Positions 894 to 18,400 of a DNA stretch of 21,743 nt are shown here, in pieces. The DNA comes from a virus: the IMG/VR virus record IMGVR_UViG_3300009129_000098, positions 1-21,743 of that record, one strand, 5' to 3'. The position numbers were made by a program, and so were the translations under genes. The notes beneath the pieces are model-generated. The model was not told where the DNA came from. It searched no databases and was given only the letters and a program-made list of their open reading frames with translations. How positions within the stretch are numbered: the first letter of the stretch is position 1; every line of letters starts with the position of its first letter.

Positions 894-971
894 TAAGTCG
901 TTGACTATCAACGACTTATGGCACGCCGCCGGGCCGGCTTGTGCTGTAAACCCTTGATAGTCAACGACTTA
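894..971. repeat. 78-bp nested palindromic element, copy B
   Basis: The left arm (894-918) is a perfect inverted repeat: 11-base stem TAAGTCGTTGA, loop CTA, and the complement. The right arm (947-971) is a weaker inverted repeat. The right arm is also an inverted copy of the left arm (22 of 25 positions), with a GC-rich centre (CCGCCGGGCCGGC) between them. The element can therefore fold either as two short hairpins or as one long one. It contains the stop codon (969-971) of the leftward 107-aa gene. Confidence 0.92.
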
Positions 972-1292
972 GGAGATCTTCTTTGCCTTGACGATCTTAG
1001 TGCAAGTCCATACCCAATTACCACCCTTGCCATTCAAGCCCTTGTAGTAACGCAAGCCCGCTTGCCAAACATTCTTGCCGTACTGATGCACAGTAAAGAC
1101 ATGGTTCATGGTTCGATTTTGTACAGTTAGGGCGTACAGGTTGCCTTTGCAATGAGCCTTGTATCTGCGTTGATTGCCTTGCCAAGACGGGTCGGCAGGA
1201 ATGTTACTCTTGCAAGTCTTGCCAACCTTGATATCATCCAATGCTTTGCATTGGTCATACATGGCTTGAGTGAATGGTTTTACTTTAAACAT
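969..1292 (-). CDS. Hypothetical protein, 107 aa, Cys/Trp/aromatic-rich
   Basis: The last of three genes in one leftward cassette. The 107-aa product is basic and rich in Lys, Asn, Tyr and Trp, with cysteines near residues 15, 27, 48 and 97, and no membrane segment. The ATG at 1292 follows the stop of the 50-aa gene by nine bases. There is no recognisable Shine-Dalgarno sequence, only an AT-rich leader. The stop codon lies inside palindromic element B. I do not recognise the family. The tryptophan- and glycine-rich C-terminal part (GGNWVWTCTKI) suggests a small beta-rich fold, but this is a guess. Confidence 0.72.
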   Translation of the reverse strand: MFKVKPFTQAMYDQCKALDDIKVGKTCKSNIPADPSWQGNQRRYKAHCKGNLYALTVQNRTMNHVFTVHQYGKNVWQAGLRYYKGLNGKGGNWVWTCTKIVKAKKIS

Positions 1293-1301
1293 TTAAAAAT
1301 T

Positions 1302-1454
1302 TCAGTTAGAGGGGAAAAGCCCATAACGACGAGAGCCGTCATTGGTAGCTTGGCGACGCTTGAGGAGACGCTTGGCGTCACGCTCACGCATGGCGATAGA
1401 TTCGACTTGCCAAACAGCACCTGCTTGGTTGAGGATAGACTTGAGAATGTACAT
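1302..1454 (-). CDS. Small basic protein, 50 aa
   Basis: Reading leftward from the ATG at 1454 gives 50 codons to TGA at 1302: MYILKSILNQAGAVWQVESI and then an Arg/Lys-rich half with RERDAKRLLKRRQ. An AGGA stretch lies about seven bases upstream. It is the middle gene of a three-gene cassette, 22 bases after the 40-aa gene and nine before the 107-aa gene. All six arginines are CGT or CGC, which is unlike random frame content. The basic half could bind nucleic acid. Function unknown. Confidence 0.6.
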   Translation of the reverse strand: MYILKSILNQAGAVWQVESIAMRERDAKRLLKRRQATNDGSRRYGLFPSN

Positions 1455-1476
1455 GATTTTCCTTTTCTTTTTGGGT

Positions 1477-1599
1477 TTATGCGTAACGCTTGGCGTGTTT
1501 TACCTTGCGAGTGTATTTGGACTTGTCCTTGTGAGGGCGAGCTTTAGTAAAGAGAATTTGAAGCCTTAGCTTGGGGGTCTTTGCCTTTCTTGTCTTCAT
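1477..1599 (-). CDS. Very basic 40-aa protein
   Basis: The ATG at 1599 sits six bases after a TATGTT -10 element identical to those of the neighbouring cassettes. The frame runs 40 codons to TAA: MKTRKAKTPKLRLQILFTK, then a Lys/Arg/His-rich tail with KYTRKVKHAKRYA. About 40% of residues are Lys, Arg or His, so nucleic-acid binding is plausible. It is the first gene of the cassette that continues with the 50-aa and 107-aa genes. The conserved promoter placed exactly at its start is the main reason to believe it is real. Confidence 0.65.
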   Translation of the reverse strand: MKTRKAKTPKLRLQILFTKARPHKDKSKYTRKVKHAKRYA

Positions 1600-1605
1600 A
1601 CTAAC

Positions 1606-1634
1606 AACATAAGGGTAAAAACTACTAAAGTCAA
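1606..1634 (-). promoter_or_regulatory. Promoter of the 40/50/107-aa cassette
   Basis: On the minus strand TTGACT (1629-1634), 17 bases, TATGTT (1606-1611), GTTAGT, then the ATG at 1599. It has the same geometry and the same -10 to ATG sequence as the promoters at 802-830 and 2446-2474. Confidence 0.78.
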
Positions 1635-1664
1635 ACTTTATTTTAGTTATTTTTCATTATGTCG

Positions 1665-1742
1665 TAAGTCGTTGACTATCAACGACTTAGGGCACACCGC
1701 CGGGCCGGCCTGTGCCATAAGCCCTTGGTTATTAACGACTTA
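1665..1742. repeat. 78-bp nested palindromic element, copy C
   Basis: The left arm (1665-1689) is the same perfect 11-bp hairpin as in copies B and D. The centre carries GGCACA and TGTGCC as an extra 6-bp inverted pair around CCGCCGGGCCGGCC. The right arm (1718-1742) is more diverged (TAAGCCCTTGGTTATTA...). It ends two bases from the stop of the leftward 63-aa gene. Confidence 0.92.
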
Positions 1743-1744
1743 TG

Positions 1745-1936
1745 TTAAAAGTCGTATTGGGCATGGTAGCCATAGTCGATGTCCGCGTTCTCATTACGGA
1801 ACTCAAGGAGAGCGAGCTTGTCCTCCCAGTAACCGATTTCATTGCGGAGCGAAACCCTATCAGCCTCACCGAGATCAGCGGTCTGAAGGTGGGCGTGAAG
1901 TTGGGAGATGTGGCTTTCTATTTCTGATTTAGTCAT
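1745..1936 (-). CDS. Small helical protein, 63 aa
   Basis: The product starts MTKSEIESHISQLHAHLQT and is acidic and predicted helical. An in-frame ATG farther upstream (2014) lies within palindromic element D, so I reject it. The start at 1936 is set by a promoter whose -10 element (TACCTT, 1942-1947) ends five bases before the ATG. It is a single-gene cassette between elements D and C. The repeated pattern of hydrophobic and charged residues suggests a short coiled coil. Function unknown. Confidence 0.7.
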   Translation of the reverse strand: MTKSEIESHISQLHAHLQTADLGEADRVSLRNEIGYWEDKLALLEFRNENADIDYGYHAQYDF

Positions 1937-1941
1937 ACCTA

Positions 1942-1970
1942 AAGGTAGCATGTAGCGCAAGCAATTGCAA
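1942..1970 (-). promoter_or_regulatory. Promoter of the 63-aa gene
   Basis: On the minus strand TTGCAA (1965-1970), 17 bases, TACCTT (1942-1947, TACCTTTA), then five bases to the ATG at 1936. It keeps the spacing of the other cassette promoters although its sequence is the most diverged. This argues for selection on spacing rather than simple copying. Confidence 0.68.
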
Positions 1971-1996
1971 GTTTTTTTTACTTTTTTATTATGTCG

Positions 1997-2074
1997 TAAG
2001 TCGTTGACTATCAACGACTTAGGGCATACCCGCCCCCGGGCCTGTGCCGTAAACCCTTGATAGTCAACGACTTA
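1997..2074. repeat. 78-bp nested palindromic element, copy D
   Basis: The left arm (1997-2021) is the perfect 11-bp hairpin. The right arm (2050-2074) is identical to that of copy B. The centre differs most here (CCCGCCCCCGGGCC), but its outer pair GGCATA/TGTGCC is kept with one mismatch. It starts eight bases after the end of the leftward 62-aa gene. Confidence 0.92.
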
Positions 2075-3209: not shown

Positions 3210-3433
3210 TTCCCGATCTTGACTTTGCTTTTTTTAAACCTCATTATTGCGGACTCTTGTCCGTGAGGGATAAATGATACGCATCTGAATCCCGCCATGA
3301 ACATTTTCAGTTCTATTCTTTCTACGAATTTTCGGGGAAGATTTAAGATAAAGACTGGATGATTGTCTTCCGACGGGTCAGCTAAAATAAATTCGTGGCA
3401 AAATTCCCAGCAAAAATTATACAGAGAGTTCAT
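3206..3433 (-). CDS. Hypothetical protein, 75 aa
   Basis: Leftward frame read from ATG 3433 (MNSLYNFCWEFCHEFILAD). A TTG start six codons upstream (3451) is possible but less likely. It overlaps the end of the preceding leftward gene (stop at 3417) by 17 bases, so the two are probably co-transcribed and translationally coupled. The N-terminal part has two Cys and many aromatic residues, and the C-terminus is basic (MRFKKSKVKIGN). Function unknown. Its stop overlaps that of the convergent 79-aa gene. Confidence 0.6.
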   Translation of the reverse strand: MNSLYNFCWEFCHEFILADPSEDNHPVFILNLPRKFVERIELKMFMAGFRCVSFIPHGQESAIMRFKKSKVKIGN

Positions 3434-3674
3434 CGTCGGATTTGTTGACAAGTTCCTGAACTAGTGTGAACTTTCCATCAATCATCAATTCCGCCGGCGT
3501 TTTTCCTTCTTCATTTTCGATTGGGGTGTTCAGCCATACTGTAGCTTCGTAAATGGTGTACTTTTTTGCAATAGCGGTCATGATATCATATTTCGTTATG
3601 GTGCCGTCCCCCAAGGCAACTTCTATCTGACCTTTGCTTTTCTTTACTGAAGCTTTATTAGCTTTTTTACTCAT
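3417..3674 (-). CDS. Small protein, 85 aa, N-terminal basic tail
   Basis: The chosen start, ATG at 3674, gives MSKKANKASVKKSKGQ, a basic tail followed by a compact domain of about 65 residues (GDGTITKYDIMTAIAKKYTI...). A longer frame from 3734 would cover a likely promoter, so I reject it. On the minus strand GTGTAAATA lies directly upstream and ends five bases before this ATG, the same layout as several rightward genes. I do not recognise the family. The two small leftward genes here form their own short unit inside an otherwise rightward block. Confidence 0.65.
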   Translation of the reverse strand: MSKKANKASVKKSKGQIEVALGDGTITKYDIMTAIAKKYTIYEATVWLNTPIENEEGKTPAELMIDGKFTLVQELVNKSDDELSV

Positions 3675-7253: not shown

Positions 7254-8199
7254 TAAAGTACAATGCCTAAAATGCAAAAAAGAGTTTAAATCCGACTCTG
7301 GGCTTCATAAACACCTTAAGGTCCACAACCTTACGGTGCCGGAGTATTATACCTCCTTTTACCCACGGAAAAACGCATTGACCCAAGACCTTCTGCCATT
7401 TAAGAATAAATTCGATTATTTTAATAAAGACTTCACCACAAGGGCACAAATGATCAAATGGTGCAATACTCATGACAATAAAGAAGAGATAAAGGAATAT
7501 ATACTTAAACAATTAAAAACAAGAGTGGAAAAGAATAAAAGTACATATGCACCTAACCATCTGGAAATAGAAATAAATAAATTACCATCCATAGATATAT
7601 ATAAGGATAATTTTGGCGGTTATGGTCAAGCCTGTAAAGAGCTTGGCCTTGAGCCAATATACAATAAGGGAATACAAAAAGACCTTCTGGAAAAAAACTC
7701 CAAAATAGAAGAAATACAAATATACATCGACACAAGAGAACAAACACCTCTTTCTTTTAAAAATTCGAAGAATCACAAATTGGACTTTGGGGACTATACA
7801 ATGGGGGGTGAGAGCTATACCTATACTTATGTTGACCGAAAGAGCGAAAGCGATTTCAAGGGCACTATGGGGCTTGGATTCAACCGTTTTAGAAATGAGC
7901 TCCAAAGAGCGAAGGATTTCAATGCTTATTTATATATTGTAGTTGAAAAAAGCTTAAAACAAATTATTAAGAATAACGCATATTTAAAACGTAATAAAAT
8001 GAAAGGCGCTGTCAATATGGATTTTGCCATGCACAACATGAGAGTGTTGACCCATGAATTCAGGGGTCATTGCCAATTTGTTTTTTCCGGTAGCCGCCGA
8101 AACTCCGAATTGTTAATTCCGAATTTATTATATTATGGACCCCAATTATGGGATGTGGACATACAATACTTATTAGATCATTATGAAAGAAGATATTAA
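7240..8199 (+). CDS. Zinc-finger/ERCC4-type nuclease
   Basis: A 319-aa protein read from ATG 7240; a longer frame from 7177 would overlap the previous gene much more. Residues 9-29 are a C2H2 zinc finger (Cys9, Cys12, His25, His29). Residues about 110-143 (FGGYGQACKELGLEPIYN) resemble the repeat found next to homing-endonuclease domains. Residues 160-240 match the ERCC4/XPF nuclease core: IDTRE (163-167), LDFGDY (181-186), and VDRKSESD (198-205), which fits the ERK-x3-D active site with Asp for Glu. Such enzymes cut branched or flap DNA, so a role in recombination or resolving DNA before packaging is plausible. It overlaps the subtilase gene by 17 bases. Confidence 0.82.
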   Translation: MTSLDKVQCLKCKKEFKSDSGLHKHLKVHNLTVPEYYTSFYPRKNALTQDLLPFKNKFDYFNKDFTTRAQMIKWCNTHDNKEEIKEYILKQLKTRVEKNKSTYAPNHLEIEINKLPSIDIYKDNFGGYGQACKELGLEPIYNKGIQKDLLEKNSKIEEIQIYIDTREQTPLSFKNSKNHKLDFGDYTMGGESYTYTYVDRKSESDFKGTMGLGFNRFRNELQRAKDFNAYLYIVVEKSLKQIIKNNAYLKRNKMKGAVNMDFAMHNMRVLTHEFRGHCQFVFSGSRRNSELLIPNLLYYGPQLWDVDIQYLLDHYERRY

Positions 8200-9406
8200 A
8201 TTACCAGATTTTAAGGTAGAAGAAGTTTTTACAACTTTCTCTCAATCATTTGATTGGGGCTTGAAATATTCAAATATCCCTAACACTTGGAAGGTTACTC
8301 AGGGAGAAGGTATAACGATTGCCGTAATAGATACTGGAATGACCGACCATATAGACATTGGTGATAATGCAGTAGAAGGCGCCAACTTTATTGAAGGAGA
8401 AGATATTTATGATTATAATGGGCATCAGACGCATTGTGTTGGAATTATATCAGCTAAAAACAATCAACAGGGATTTGTCGGTGTAGCCCCCAAGGCTAAA
8501 TGCGTTTGCTTTAAAGCTTTAAATAAAAACGGATCTGGTAATTATACTCAGATAGCAAAAGCCTTGAAGGCTGTCAAAGAATTAAATCCTGATATAGTGT
8601 CAATGTCACTAGGGGGATCTCGTCCGTCTCCAGAAATGCACGAAGTTATCAAAGAGCTTTATGAAATGAATATACCTGTTGTATGCGCAGCTGGTAATTC
8701 TGGTTTTTCAGGGGTAGGGTATCCTGCAGCTTTCCCGGAAACTATTGCGGTTGCCGCTTATGATAAATACGGTAAAATTTCAAGTTTTTCCTCTAGAGGT
8801 CCTGAGGTTGATTGGGCCGCTCCGGGATCTAATATATATAGTACTTATTTAAATAATACGTACGCTTCCCTTAGTGGAACTTCTATGGCATGCCCTTTTA
8901 TGGCTGGAGTTATAGCGTTAATGATCGCTAAACATAACAAGCAAGAAAAAGAGACGGGCAAGAATGATTGCAAGACTGTAGAAGACATTCGTAATCATTT
9001 ATTGAAATATACCAATGACAAGGGAAGTGTTGGAAGAGATAATGACTGGGGGTATGGGGTTGTAGATGCTGAAAAAATGATTACCGGAGGTAGTTCCGAA
9101 ACAACAACTCAGAAACCTACTACTACAATGGCCCCAACTACTACTCCTAGCCCACCTGAGCCTCCTAAAATCAAACCTCCTGCAGCTCCTCCTGAAAGAC
9201 CTGTGCATGAAGAACCTAAAAAAAGCCCTGAAGTTCCTGAAACTCCTTTCTGGAAAAAGAATATTGCATGGATTGCAGTTGGGGCTTTCGTGCTTTTGTG
9301 TTTGGGCGCTTTCGCTTATCAGCAATTAACTAAGGATAAAAATTCAGTTGAATGGGACGCAGATTGGGATGAGCGATATAACAACGACCCTAATAAGATA
9401 AAATGA
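8183..9406 (+). CDS. Subtilisin-like serine protease with a C-terminal membrane anchor
   Basis: A 407-aa S8-family protease. The catalytic triad is Asp50 (AVIDTGM), His81 (NGHQTHCVGI; the usual Gly after His is Gln) and Ser234 (LSGTSMACP), with the oxyanion Asn172 in AAGNSG. There is no signal peptide and no clear inhibitory propeptide: the catalytic domain begins near residue 25, as in intracellular subtilisins. Residues 304-356 are a Thr/Pro/Glu-rich linker and 361-381 a membrane helix (WIAVGAFVLLCLGAFAY), followed by an acidic 26-residue tail. The stop overlaps the terminase start as ATGA. Placement in the packaging operon suggests a phage role, for example in particle maturation, lysis or anti-host proteolysis, none of which is shown by the sequence. 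Confidence 0.93.
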   Translation: MKEDIKLPDFKVEEVFTTFSQSFDWGLKYSNIPNTWKVTQGEGITIAVIDTGMTDHIDIGDNAVEGANFIEGEDIYDYNGHQTHCVGIISAKNNQQGFVGVAPKAKCVCFKALNKNGSGNYTQIAKALKAVKELNPDIVSMSLGGSRPSPEMHEVIKELYEMNIPVVCAAGNSGFSGVGYPAAFPETIAVAAYDKYGKISSFSSRGPEVDWAAPGSNIYSTYLNNTYASLSGTSMACPFMAGVIALMIAKHNKQEKETGKNDCKTVEDIRNHLLKYTNDKGSVGRDNDWGYGVVDAEKMITGGSSETTTQKPTTTMAPTTTPSPPEPPKIKPPAAPPERPVHEEPKKSPEVPETPFWKKNIAWIAVGAFVLLCLGAFAYQQLTKDKNSVEWDADWDERYNNDPNKIK

Positions 9407-14383: not shown

Positions 14384-16015
14384 ATGAGCGCACCTTTTAA
14401 GCACACATTATCTTTCAGCAATTCCATTTCGGCATCTTGTGTTGATGGAAGTTGCAAGCGGTTTCAAATTAGCGAAGCCTCATTAAAGAACTTGCAAGCC
14501 CTCATCCCCAAGGATGTTGATTTGACTAAAAACATTGATTTGCTTGGCGTTGCATTTAATGCAGCCGTAGTTAATAAATTCAATAGAAACGGAGATGGTA
14601 TAGATACTGAAACGGCCCTTGCCGTTTCTGATTACTTTATTCACAAACCTACAAATATTGAGCATCATAAAGAAAGAGTTGTTGGACATATAGTATCATC
14701 TTCCTTTAGCGAAATCGGAAGCAGCGAGATGTTAAGCTCTGAAGCTATAGCACCTAGGCGGGACCCATTTAATATATCATTAGGCGCACTTGTTTATAAA
14801 ATAGTAAATCCCGCATTTATAAATATGCTTGAAGAATCCAATGAAGGAGAACAATATCATAATGTAGTTTCCGCTAGTTGGGAAATAGGATTTAATGATT
14901 TTTACATTGCCGTAGGTAGTGATAATTTAAACGAGGCTGAAGTAGTCACCGATAAATCTCAAATCAAAGAGCTTAAACAATACCTAAAAGCTTATGATGG
15001 CGAAGGCAAGATGGAAGACGGTACAATCGTCAATCGTTTGGTCGTTGGGAATGTTTATCCCTTAGGCATAGGATTCACTTCTAACCCAGCCGCTGACGTT
15101 CAAGGTGTCTTCGTTGAAAGCGATGAAGAGTTAGAGATTAAAAAGGACACGGTGGACGCCGAAATTTTTCATGTAAATAACATGGATAGCTACAAAAAAG
15201 AAAATAAAACGGAAAATAATAGTTCCCTTTTGGAAAAAAACACTGTAAACAAAACAAATACATTAACTATGGATACTCAAGATCTACTTAAACAAATCGA
15301 GGGCATGCTTTCTGAAAAAATTGGCGATAGCCAACAATTCGAAGAAGCCATGGCCAGTGTCTCCAAGGTGATGATGGACGCGATCAAGGAAAAAGATTCC
15401 CAATGGCAAGAGGAAAAGGCTGCCAAGGAAAATGCTATTAACGAAGCCAAGGAAAGCCAAGAGGCTCTCGCAGGAGAAGTTAAAGAGCTACAGGAAAAAC
15501 TTGAAGCTTCAGAATCCCAATGGAACGAATTGGCCGAAGAAAAACGTCTTCGCGAAGCAAAGGATCTTTTTAATTCTCGAATGGCTGCCATTACGGAAGC
15601 TTTCGATTTGAATGAAGATGATCTCAAAATTGTTGCTTCCGAAGTTTCCGAACTTGAAAATGCTGAAGAAGCGTTTGCTGGATATCAAGAAAAGCTGGGA
15701 ATCATGTGGAATCACAAGACCAAGGCTCATATTGAAGAGCAGGAAAAAGCATTCAATGAAAAGCTTGAAGCTGAATTGCAAAAGCGCATTGAAGAGCTTG
15801 CCTCTAGCGAAGCCTCGGAGCAAGACGAGCCTCAGGAAGTTGAAAAGTCAGAAGAAACAATTGAAGAAGCTATTGAAGAAGTGCTCGATACGGTAGAAGA
15901 AGAATCTTCCGCCAGCATTTCCAACAATAACGAAGCTGCTTCTACTGAAGAGCCGACTTTACGTCAAAAATTTAACGAAGCTTTCTCAAAAGAAAACATA
16001 CAAATTAAATATTAA
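14384..16015 (+). CDS. Prohead protease fused to a scaffold-like coiled coil
   Basis: A 543-aa protein. Residues 50-245 look like a prohead protease of the herpesvirus-assemblin type: PTNIEHHKERVVGHI (89-103) gives the candidate catalytic His94 or His95, and NVVSASWEIGF (160-170) the candidate Ser163 or Ser165. Residues 300-470 are a long, highly charged coiled coil, followed by an acidic Glu/Ser-rich end, as in scaffold proteins. A Met at residue 296 (ATG 15269) could start a separate scaffold product in the same frame. Codon choice changes near there: eight of about 20 isoleucines are ATA before it, but one of about 14 after. The protease would cut the scaffold and mature the capsid. Confidence 0.8.
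   Translation: MSAPFKHTLSFSNSISASCVDGSCKRFQISEASLKNLQALIPKDVDLTKNIDLLGVAFNAAVVNKFNRNGDGIDTETALAVSDYFIHKPTNIEHHKERVVGHIVSSSFSEIGSSEMLSSEAIAPRRDPFNISLGALVYKIVNPAFINMLEESNEGEQYHNVVSASWEIGFNDFYIAVGSDNLNEAEVVTDKSQIKELKQYLKAYDGEGKMEDGTIVNRLVVGNVYPLGIGFTSNPAADVQGVFVESDEELEIKKDTVDAEIFHVNNMDSYKKENKTENNSSLLEKNTVNKTNTLTMDTQDLLKQIEGMLSEKIGDSQQFEEAMASVSKVMMDAIKEKDSQWQEEKAAKENAINEAKESQEALAGEVKELQEKLEASESQWNELAEEKRLREAKDLFNSRMAAITEAFDLNEDDLKIVASEVSELENAEEAFAGYQEKLGIMWNHKTKAHIEEQEKAFNEKLEAELQKRIEELASSEASEQDEPQEVEKSEETIEEAIEEVLDTVEEESSASISNNNEAASTEEPTLRQKFNEAFSKENIQIKY
15269..16015 (+). CDS. Possible internal-start scaffold product
   Basis: An in-frame ATG at codon 296 of the protease-scaffold gene would give a 248-aa protein (MDTQDLLKQIEGMLSEKIGD...) made only of the coiled-coil and acidic tail. 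This is how lambda Nu3 is made inside gene C. The change from ATA-rich to ATT/ATC codons at this point fits stronger expression of the downstream part. There is no Shine-Dalgarno sequence, only an AT-rich stretch, which in this genome does not argue against a start. Confidence 0.4.
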   Translation: MDTQDLLKQIEGMLSEKIGDSQQFEEAMASVSKVMMDAIKEKDSQWQEEKAAKENAINEAKESQEALAGEVKELQEKLEASESQWNELAEEKRLREAKDLFNSRMAAITEAFDLNEDDLKIVASEVSELENAEEAFAGYQEKLGIMWNHKTKAHIEEQEKAFNEKLEAELQKRIEELASSEASEQDEPQEVEKSEETIEEAIEEVLDTVEEESSASISNNNEAASTEEPTLRQKFNEAFSKENIQIKY

Positions 16016-16710: not shown

Positions 16711-17832
16711 ATGAATATTACTCTTAAACGCACCGACGAACAAGTCGAGCTTGTAAAAGCTATGGCTTCTCGCAATCGTGACGTAGCCTATGAAGCTCAA
16801 GCTGCTTTAGCTGAGTTCATGAGCCCCGTTCTTGCTGAAGTAGTTAATCAAGCACCGACGCTGAGCAATTTGTTTAGCTCTTTCTCGTTTAACGCTGATA
16901 GCAACCCAAGTCTTCCGCTTGATCTCTATTACGACATCAACGCTGATGATTATATCAAGGTTTACAGCACCACGGTTCCGGGCGGTCTTCCGACCAACCA
17001 AGTGCTTCCGACTGCTAGCGAACTGAAGTTCACGACTTATCGCCTTGATAGCGCGGTTAGTTTTGATCGTCGTTATGCTGCTCAGTCACGCCTTGATGTT
17101 GTAGGCAAATCCTTTACTAGGCTTGCTCAAGAAGTTTTGCTTAAGCAAGAATCTACCTCTGCGAACTTGGTTCTTGGTTCTTTGGCTGATGCCGAGACCA
17201 ATGCAAAGGCGCACGTTAAGGATCAAGTGGACGCAACCCTTGGTTTTACTCTCGCCGATTTCAATTCTCTTATTACTCTTGCAAAGCGCATCAATACGGC
17301 TTGGACCGGTGGTACGCCAGAAGGAGCTATCAAGGGAATCTCCGACCTTCTTGTTTCTCCGGAAACTATGGAAGATCTGCGTGCGATGGCTTACAACCCA
17401 GTAAATACTTCTACTGGCCCTGCCGGTGGAGCCGGAACTGGATTGGTCGCTGCTCCTGAATCGTATCGTTCCAGCGTATTCACCAATGGTGGATCGCCTG
17501 AGCTTTATGGTATCGGATTGATGGAACTTAACGAACTCGGACCGAACCGCAAGTTCTGCCGTCTGTTCGAACAGTTTCAGGCTTCGTCTAGCGCAACAGC
17601 CCCGGTTAGTTTTACTTCTACAGATGATCTTGTAGTAGGAATTGACCGTTCTCGCGAATCCTTGATTCGTGCGGTTGCTACCGACGCTGAAAGCGGAGCT
17701 GAATTCTCCTTATCGGCTGATGATCAATACAGTGTTCGCCAACAAAAGATTGGTTACTATGGTTCTCTCGAAGAGGGTCGTATGGTTATCGATAACCGGG
17801 TTCTTACCGGTATTGTTGTCGCCGGACACTGA
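16711..17832 (+). CDS. Major capsid protein
   Basis: A 373-aa protein with HK97-like features: an N-terminal helical region (about 1-45), then a body including LYYDINADDYIKVYSTTVPG and a region near 100-150 (TASELKFTTYRLDSAVSF, RLAQEVLLKQESTSANLVLG), and a C-terminal part ending LEEGRMVIDNRVLTGIVV. Position after protease and decoration genes fits. Codon use is that of a very highly expressed gene: 18 of 19 arginines are CGN and only one is AGG, whereas neighbouring genes use AGA freely. An AGGAA sequence lies 11 bases before the ATG. A strong terminator follows. Confidence 0.85.
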   Translation: MNITLKRTDEQVELVKAMASRNRDVAYEAQAALAEFMSPVLAEVVNQAPTLSNLFSSFSFNADSNPSLPLDLYYDINADDYIKVYSTTVPGGLPTNQVLPTASELKFTTYRLDSAVSFDRRYAAQSRLDVVGKSFTRLAQEVLLKQESTSANLVLGSLADAETNAKAHVKDQVDATLGFTLADFNSLITLAKRINTAWTGGTPEGAIKGISDLLVSPETMEDLRAMAYNPVNTSTGPAGGAGTGLVAAPESYRSSVFTNGGSPELYGIGLMELNELGPNRKFCRLFEQFQASSSATAPVSFTSTDDLVVGIDRSRESLIRAVATDAESGAEFSLSADDQYSVRQQKIGYYGSLEEGRMVIDNRVLTGIVVAGH

Positions 17833-17858
17833 TTGTAAAATCAGATAACATCTTAAAG

Positions 17859-17885
17859 ACCCGCCCGTCATGGGCGGGTTTTTTT
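17859..17885 (+). terminator. Rho-independent terminator after the capsid gene
   Basis: ACCCGCCC and GGGCGGGT form a perfect 8-bp GC-rich stem with a five-base loop (GTCAT), followed by a T-run to 17885. It is the strongest rightward terminator in the window. Confidence 0.95.
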
Positions 17886-17897
17886 GTTCTCGGATAC

Positions 17898-17925
17898 TTG
17901 ATTTTTGTGTATCTGGAGTTATAAT
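17898..17925 (+). promoter_or_regulatory. Consensus-like promoter before the SAP-like gene
   Basis: TTGATT (17898-17903), a 16-base spacer and a perfect TATAAT (17920-17925) resemble a classical sigma-70 promoter. A GTGTATCTG motif sits inside the spacer (17907-17915). The ATG at 17951 is 26 bases after the -10 hexamer. Two kinds of polymerase could therefore use the same site. Confidence 0.6.
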
Positions 17926-17950
17926 ATAGTATTATTAACTAATTATTATT

Positions 17951-18400
17951 ATGCCAGCTAAAAAAACAAAATCATCGAAATCAGCACCTAAAAAAAAGGC
18001 TGTTAGCTCCAAACCTGCTAAGAAAAGTACCCCAAAGAAAAGCGCTGTAAAGAAAGTTAAAGATCTTAAGGTGGCTGACGGAAGGACGGATTTGGAAAAA
18101 GTAAAGGATCTGGAAGAGCTCTTGAGCGTAAAACAAGTCAATCCTTTCGGAACTACAAATAAAGAAGTGCTTGAAGATAAAATGCAGGAAATGACCTTGA
18201 CTGATTTGCAAACTTTCGCAATTAAGGTGGGGATCCTACCAAGCGGAAGTAAGTTGTCCCTAAAGAATAAACTTATGAGAGCTTTTAAGTCTCATGCAGG
18301 GGCGGGAGCCGGATACAATACCGGGTTTAATAAACCACTAGTTGACCCTAAGAGTAAAGCAGCCGCCGAGATCTTAAAGATTTCACAAGAAGGTTTTTAA
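17951..18400 (+). CDS. Lysine-rich protein with a C-terminal SAP-like domain
   Basis: A 149-aa protein. The first 40 residues are histone-H1-like, mainly Lys, Ser, Ala and Pro (starts MPAKKTKSSKSAPKKKAV). Residues 75-115 (MTLTDLQTFAIKVGILPSGS, then LKNKLMRAFKSH) look like a SAP/HeH DNA-binding helix-extension-helix. Both parts suggest DNA binding. It is expressed with the neck genes just after the capsid gene. It might be an internal virion protein or organise DNA near the portal, which is inference. The next gene starts two bases after its stop, with AGAAGG about 11 bases before that ATG. Confidence 0.72.
   Translation: MPAKKTKSSKSAPKKKAVSSKPAKKSTPKKSAVKKVKDLKVADGRTDLEKVKDLEELLSVKQVNPFGTTNKEVLEDKMQEMTLTDLQTFAIKVGILPSGSKLSLKNKLMRAFKSHAGAGAGYNTGFNKPLVDPKSKAAAEILKISQEGF

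Follow-up and report, generated by a model that had tools for sequence, protein, structure and literature searches.

Twin-palindrome arrays as a possible joint between accessory gene cassettes in a widespread family of aquatic phages

We found, in phages of a large, widespread aquatic family, arrays of a two-palindrome element lying between small accessory genes, with one spacing per genome, conserved box sequences, cassettes shuffled between relatives, and, in one case, an exchange boundary. From these sequences, we favor a reading, held at about even confidence, in which the element joins gene cassettes at the DNA level within a hypervariable accessory array of this family. A cassette would be made up of at least one small gene with a promoter and, in many cases, a terminator of the ordinary kind. 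The joint would consist of four 11-nt boxes (TAASTCGTTGA) that form two palindromes on either side of a GC-rich core. Cassettes would be gained, lost, inverted, and exchanged by recombination at the joint repeats, with each phage retaining its own core and spacing through the whole array.

The stretch of DNA analyzed here (the window) is a whole IMG/VR record of 21,743 bases. It contains three copies of the element on the minus strand, at 894 to 971, 1665 to 1742, and 1997 to 2074, and, at 1 to 42, about 42 nt from the right side of a fourth minus-strand copy, which is cut by the contig end and includes a palindrome at 18 to 42. As originally predicted, the three copies are of equal length (exactly 78 nt) with a constant step of 53 nt; their pairwise identity is 65 to 68 of 78 positions. 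Each has two 25-nt palindromes of the form TAAgTCGTTGA-NNN-TCAACGAcTTA, which flank a GC-rich core of 28 nt (919 to 946, with equivalents at 1690 to 1717 and 2022 to 2049). The promoter-side palindrome (894 to 918) reads TAAGTCGTTGA-CTA-TCAACGACTTA on the plus strand and recurs unchanged at 1665 to 1689 and 1997 to 2021, in agreement with the prediction of a left-arm hairpin identical in all three copies. In the palindrome on the gene 3' side (947 to 971, with equivalents at 1718 to 1742 and 2050 to 2074), the outer arm is intact and the inner arm has diverged (TAAACCC or TAAGCCC). The two halves had also been described as inverted copies of each other; the inverted relation is there, so that either two hairpins or a single long one can be drawn for the element, but the match is imperfect, with the right inner arm diverged. 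A degenerate additional half-site (TAAGCCATTGGTTATCAG...) can be read from the sequence at 862 to 886, 32 nt from copy 1. No T-run was found at the window elements, as had been noted, and the predicted RNA minimum free energy of the elements with their flanks is −38 to −55 kcal/mol.

All window cassette genes left of 2439 are on the minus strand, and in gene order the unit runs from a promoter-like region through one to three small genes to the element. The array gene calls are mechanical open reading frames supported by homology between arrays. The first cassette, whose promoter has no element upstream, contains genes of 52 aa (2281 to 2439) and 62 aa (2082 to 2270), and the second consists of a single gene of 63 aa (1745 to 1936). 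The third encodes proteins of 40 aa (1477 to 1599; its DUF7230 match is weak and below the cut-off), 50 aa (1302 to 1454; kept by relatives in other cassettes), and 107 aa (hypothetical; 969 to 1292), the stop codon of the last being the first TAA of element copy 1 (971 to 969). Beyond this copy lie a hypothetical gene of 91 aa (520 to 795) and a Kyano_Gp96/phrog_554-like gene (164 to 481), followed on the same strand by a canonical intrinsic terminator at 60 to 85 (GCCCCCGAAAGGGGGC-TTTTTT), between the latter gene and the left-end half element. On the minus strand, the cassette that begins at 795 has a promoter-like repeated region (direct repeat D4, 791 to 850) with equivalents at 1595 to 1654 (TTGACT-17-TATGTT) and 2435 to 2494, all of which we assign as putative promoters by their sequence. 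Where the array and phoH diverge (2485 to 2723 and 2814 to 2906), the region between them is filled by a 38-nt repeat, AAAAAAAATCGGCGC, and three 71-nt repeats, which are possibly regulatory or origin sequence. A small gene at 3417 to 3674 has a weak match, below the Pfam cut-off, to the C-terminal part of antitoxin Xre/MbcA/ParS.

Our detector found all three window copies, with none in a shuffled control, and the 13 related records that were fetched fully or nearly so each gave 5 to 21 elements (0 to 1 in shuffles). A 23-nt single-palindrome pattern matched 22 viral stretches. The two-palindrome pattern matched at least 119 stretches in viral_contigs, versus none for a control pattern with permuted arms; given that shuffled and permuted-arm controls yielded 0 to 1 matches, the occurrence of the element is not due to chance. 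In the deduplicated set, 64 arrays had at least three elements each, for a total of 393 to 411 elements, the count varying with the filter because loci overlap. Arrays hold about 3 to 21 copies, and in large records (100 to 194 kb) the elements are mostly in one cluster. When spacing was detected freely, 240 of 254 elements (48 arrays) had the modal spacing of their array, while the spacing of different genomes ranged from 41 to 60, with 41, 42, 48, 50, 53, 57, and 58 being frequent values. A search of Rfam gave no match to the element, and isolate phages had neither an array nor a match to the window array region. No published description was found in a search that took in a minority of subscription papers, which makes this a weak negative. 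A 211-kb relative (G031), with none upstream of phoH, has four sparse elements with a spacing of 51 to 52 near the contig start (1938 to 12661).

The arrays adjoin a conserved module that encodes PhoH, a sigma-like protein, an ERCC4-type nuclease, TerL, portal, protease, and capsid. TerL matches at 37 to 77% identity were found in 20 of 33 further array records. In INPHARED, TerL found no phage match over 80% of the query length, and the best 25 of 75 matches, from Bacillus, Geobacillus, and Clostridioides phages, reached at most about 26% identity. Since the best of the matches listed are about 25% identical and none covers 80%, the family appears to be uncultured. An element was detected upstream of phoH in 22 of the 60 loci that had over 1.5 kb of sequence there; two relatives of the same synteny (L314 and the 203-kb G033) have no element, which indicates that the family can do without it. 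Because IMG/VR records are fragments, a gene missing from a record may still be in the phage. A subtilisin-like protease gene lies between the ERCC4 nuclease and TerL in the window (8183 to 9406) and also occurs in G017 and G021/G022; no match to it was found in G023 and G024 despite TerL identities of 86 to 89%.

Gene content between elements differs among relatives, and whole cassettes are found beside differing neighbors. For example, the window genes at 164 to 481 and 2082 to 2270 lie at opposite ends of the array, three elements apart, and their homologs share one inter-element region in five relatives (G021, L291, L318, G006, and L255). The genes at 520 to 795, 1302 to 1454, and 1745 to 1936 come from three window cassettes but fall in one cassette in L318. 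A comparison of G012 (spacing 42) with G006 (spacing 41) shows c5 and c21 in exchanged places, c13 in inverted orientation, and four cassettes (c20, c49, c50, and c51) that G012 has and G006 lacks. Tandem elements with no genes between them were also found. Most cassette matches span less than 80% of the cassette, which indicates that breakpoints fall within cassettes too. Among the Pfam names assigned within cassettes are DUF932, GP88, ArdC with a zincin domain, SprT-like, and DUF7249. The original prediction had proposed a hot spot for recombination that brings in new genes, and the element is supported as a recombination joint by the existence of further array copies in many related phages and by the variable gene content that they flank. 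Near-exact duplicated cassettes or elements occur inside single arrays in G017 (25632 and 26876) and G024 (14789 to 15246 and 17623 to 18080).

The clearest view of an exchange comes from G017 (spacing 53), with a TerL 88% identical to that of the window, and L348 (spacing 42), which have in common a cassette of about 91% identity. On the gene 3' side, the adjacent 25-mer is identical (TAAGTCATTGACTTACAGTGACTTA), whereas the core and far half differ, each matching the class of its own phage. On the promoter side, identity spans the promoter and the first arm and stops before the core. The neighboring promoter is similar too, over about 70 nt, which implies that the core was replaced within otherwise homologous DNA. 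The simplest reading of these sequences is that cassettes carry their adjacent palindromes and that the resident array homogenizes the core. The exchange boundary across spacing classes rests on this one clear case; G024/L255 and L245/L343 also have cassettes in common across spacing classes, with less clear borders.

By analogy with what has been proposed for T4-type phages, the most economical mechanism would be homologous recombination between repeated joints. The element itself may promote exchange, which would be carried out by the homologous recombination machinery of phage or host; several phages carry a RecA/UvsX-like gene (RecA-family matches in 6 of 14 records, 5 of them over the cut-off). 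Homologous recombination alone is insufficient to account for the conservation of the boxes at TerL identities of 37 to 40%, or for the per-genome spacing. These two features, box conservation across diverged phages and per-genome spacing, suggest a sequence-specific protein that would keep the boxes and their spacing. Against the joint reading, hypervariable regions of phages are shuffled even where repeats are absent, and the proposed recombination is read from sequence comparison.

The functionally most similar system is the promoter early stem-loops (PeSLs) of T4-type phages (Arbiol 2010, Comeau 2014), which as described in PMC4503421 are repeated units of stem-loop plus promoter between small genes of a hypervariable region, proposed as mediators of modular shuffling. 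The element arrays resemble PeSLs, as described there, in placing a stem-loop and a putative promoter between genes of a hypervariable region. The element is not itself a PeSL. The phages are not of T4 type (TerL best matches, among those listed, are to the Bacillus, Geobacillus, and Clostridioides phages), and the element has two 25-nt palindromes, boxes resembling protein sites, a GC-rich core, and genome-fixed spacing. It also has no T-run, often has a separate terminator upstream, and keeps its arms by sequence and not by pairing; the terminator activity of a PeSL stem-loop would thus have to be exerted without a T-run and behind other terminators. Two relatives with the same phoH synteny, L357 and L359 (210 to 8094), have up to nine copies of a different, simple hairpin, TTGGCACGG...CCGTGCCAA, in the position between gene and promoter, often followed by a TTGACT-type promoter region. 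This hairpin is likely a PeSL-like substitute for the twin palindrome.

An alternative hypothesis, which we regard as tentative and rather unlikely, is an integron-like cassette system of phages with a site type of its own (two 25-nt palindromes, a resident core, and genome-specific spacing), in which the 25-nt palindrome would be the core site, the pair would be attC-like, and the site-specific recombinase would be host supplied or of an unrecognized kind. Such a system would fit the four 11-nt boxes kept as inverted pairs with short spacers, the single spacing per genome, the conservation of the boxes by sequence in very divergent phages, the inversion and swap of single cassettes, and the location of the exchange boundary within half-sites. 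It has a precedent in the integrase-less attC clusters (CALINs) known in phages (PMC9892861), with which our arrays have in common an imperfect inverted repeat at gene 3' ends that bounds arrayed cassettes, a stop codon sometimes within the site, and a phage without an integrase. However, tyrosine recombinases (PF00589) were found in none of 25 and none of a further 20 records (controls, 14/14 positive), serine recombinases in 0 of 17 records, and Y1 transposases (PF01797) in 0 of 14 phage records. No phage protein tracked the presence of the element, the nearest being a 130-aa protein in 7 of 9 element-bearing genomes. In G017/L348, unlike attC, the core stays behind with the array when the cassette moves, and spacing is fixed per genome. 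The attC R box GTTRRRY was present at both ends in 0 of 411 elements and at one end in 10 of 411, and the ends of the window elements are CTTANNN. A true integron attC is thus rejected by the absence of R boxes, the PF00589 result (0/45), and the immobile core of the one clear case; the integrase negative covers phage records, and an enzyme might come from the host.

Through such an integron-like system, a widespread uncultured aquatic phage family would trade anti-restriction and other accessory genes. If the joint reading favored above is right, it pinpoints where a common family of aquatic phages rearranges its accessory genes (ArdC anti-restriction, SprT-like, DUF932, GP88, and many unknowns). 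A simple sequence signature would then make variable gene arrays findable in metagenomes, and it would become a testable question what reads the box across highly diverged phages and what causes the per-genome spacing.

We consider it quite improbable that the element is primarily a 3'-end RNA element, such as a bidirectional terminator or a processing or stability hairpin. Its position between a stop codon and the following promoter would suit such a role, as would the leading TAA, which terminates the gene's reading frame in 24 of 172 supported junctions, the very stable predicted folds, and the simple GGCACGG hairpin that occupies the same position in L357/L359. The covariation data argue against it. 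In 393 elements from 63 arrays, with four variable arm positions and within-array shuffles, short-hairpin pairing equaled that of the shuffles (z = −0.2 and +1.4), and long-hairpin pairing was below it (outer arms, z = −3.6; inner arms, z = −7.5), also when G-U pairs were allowed. A switch between two hairpins and one long hairpin, as first envisaged, is not supported, given this lack of arm covariation and the long-hairpin complementarity below chance. All four arms match the box TAASTCGTTGA (mean, 9.1 to 9.7 of 11 positions) without compensatory change, which points to a binding site, another of the roles first proposed. Nor does the core behave as a conserved hairpin, as it is not reliably more stable than shuffled sequence (mean z = −0.7; 38% above the shuffled mean).

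The position of ordinary terminators leads in the same direction. Like intrinsic terminators, the element is a stem-loop 3' of a stop codon; unlike them, it has no T-run (31 of 822 element ends, or 3.8%, versus 7.8% of random positions), and ordinary terminators lie separately, often just upstream, which sets it apart from an intrinsic terminator of the T-run kind. In a strict search, a T-run terminator was found between gene stop and element in 39 of 201 gaps (≥35 nt) and between element and next start in 0 of 225 gaps. Many transcripts, including that of the window gene at 164 to 481, should therefore end at canonical terminators before the element, which weakens the proposed function in RNA processing or stability. 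An element that often lies past the expected transcript end favors a DNA role, although it may have an extra RNA role where the stop codon falls inside it.

The least probable of the readings weighed here, to which we give little credence, is an operator, in which paired dimer sites would bind a phage or host regulator about 60 to 95 nt from a promoter. The sequence conservation of the palindromes, their fixed spacing, and the median distance of 94 nt to the next start codon are consistent with this idea. However, the first window cassette, beside the divergent phoH region, has the promoter-like repeat without an element, and elements also occur between convergent genes, with no promoter near. 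A GC-rich core would be unexpected in an operator, and the spacings (41, 42, 48, 50, 53, and 58) have no clear helical phasing. Comparison of convergent with divergent junctions is suggestive, with too few well-supported divergent pairs for more. REPINs/BIMEs are likewise paired inverted intergenic palindromes, homogeneous per genome, but are rejected as an explanation by the clustering of the element, which in most large records forms one group and is not dispersed, and by the absence of a RAYT (Y1, PF01797) from all 14 phage records.

GC-core element pairs were also found in two MAGs, both of which contain TerL contigs of the phage family, and these pairs are therefore probably binned phage. 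Exact single 25-nt palindromes (L108 to L112 and L115 to L122) occur in MAGs of Fibrobacter, Akkermansia, Verrucomicrobiales, Lentisphaerae, and Bacteroidota; in one of these (L121), the palindrome is about 10 nt from a tRNA-Arg gene.
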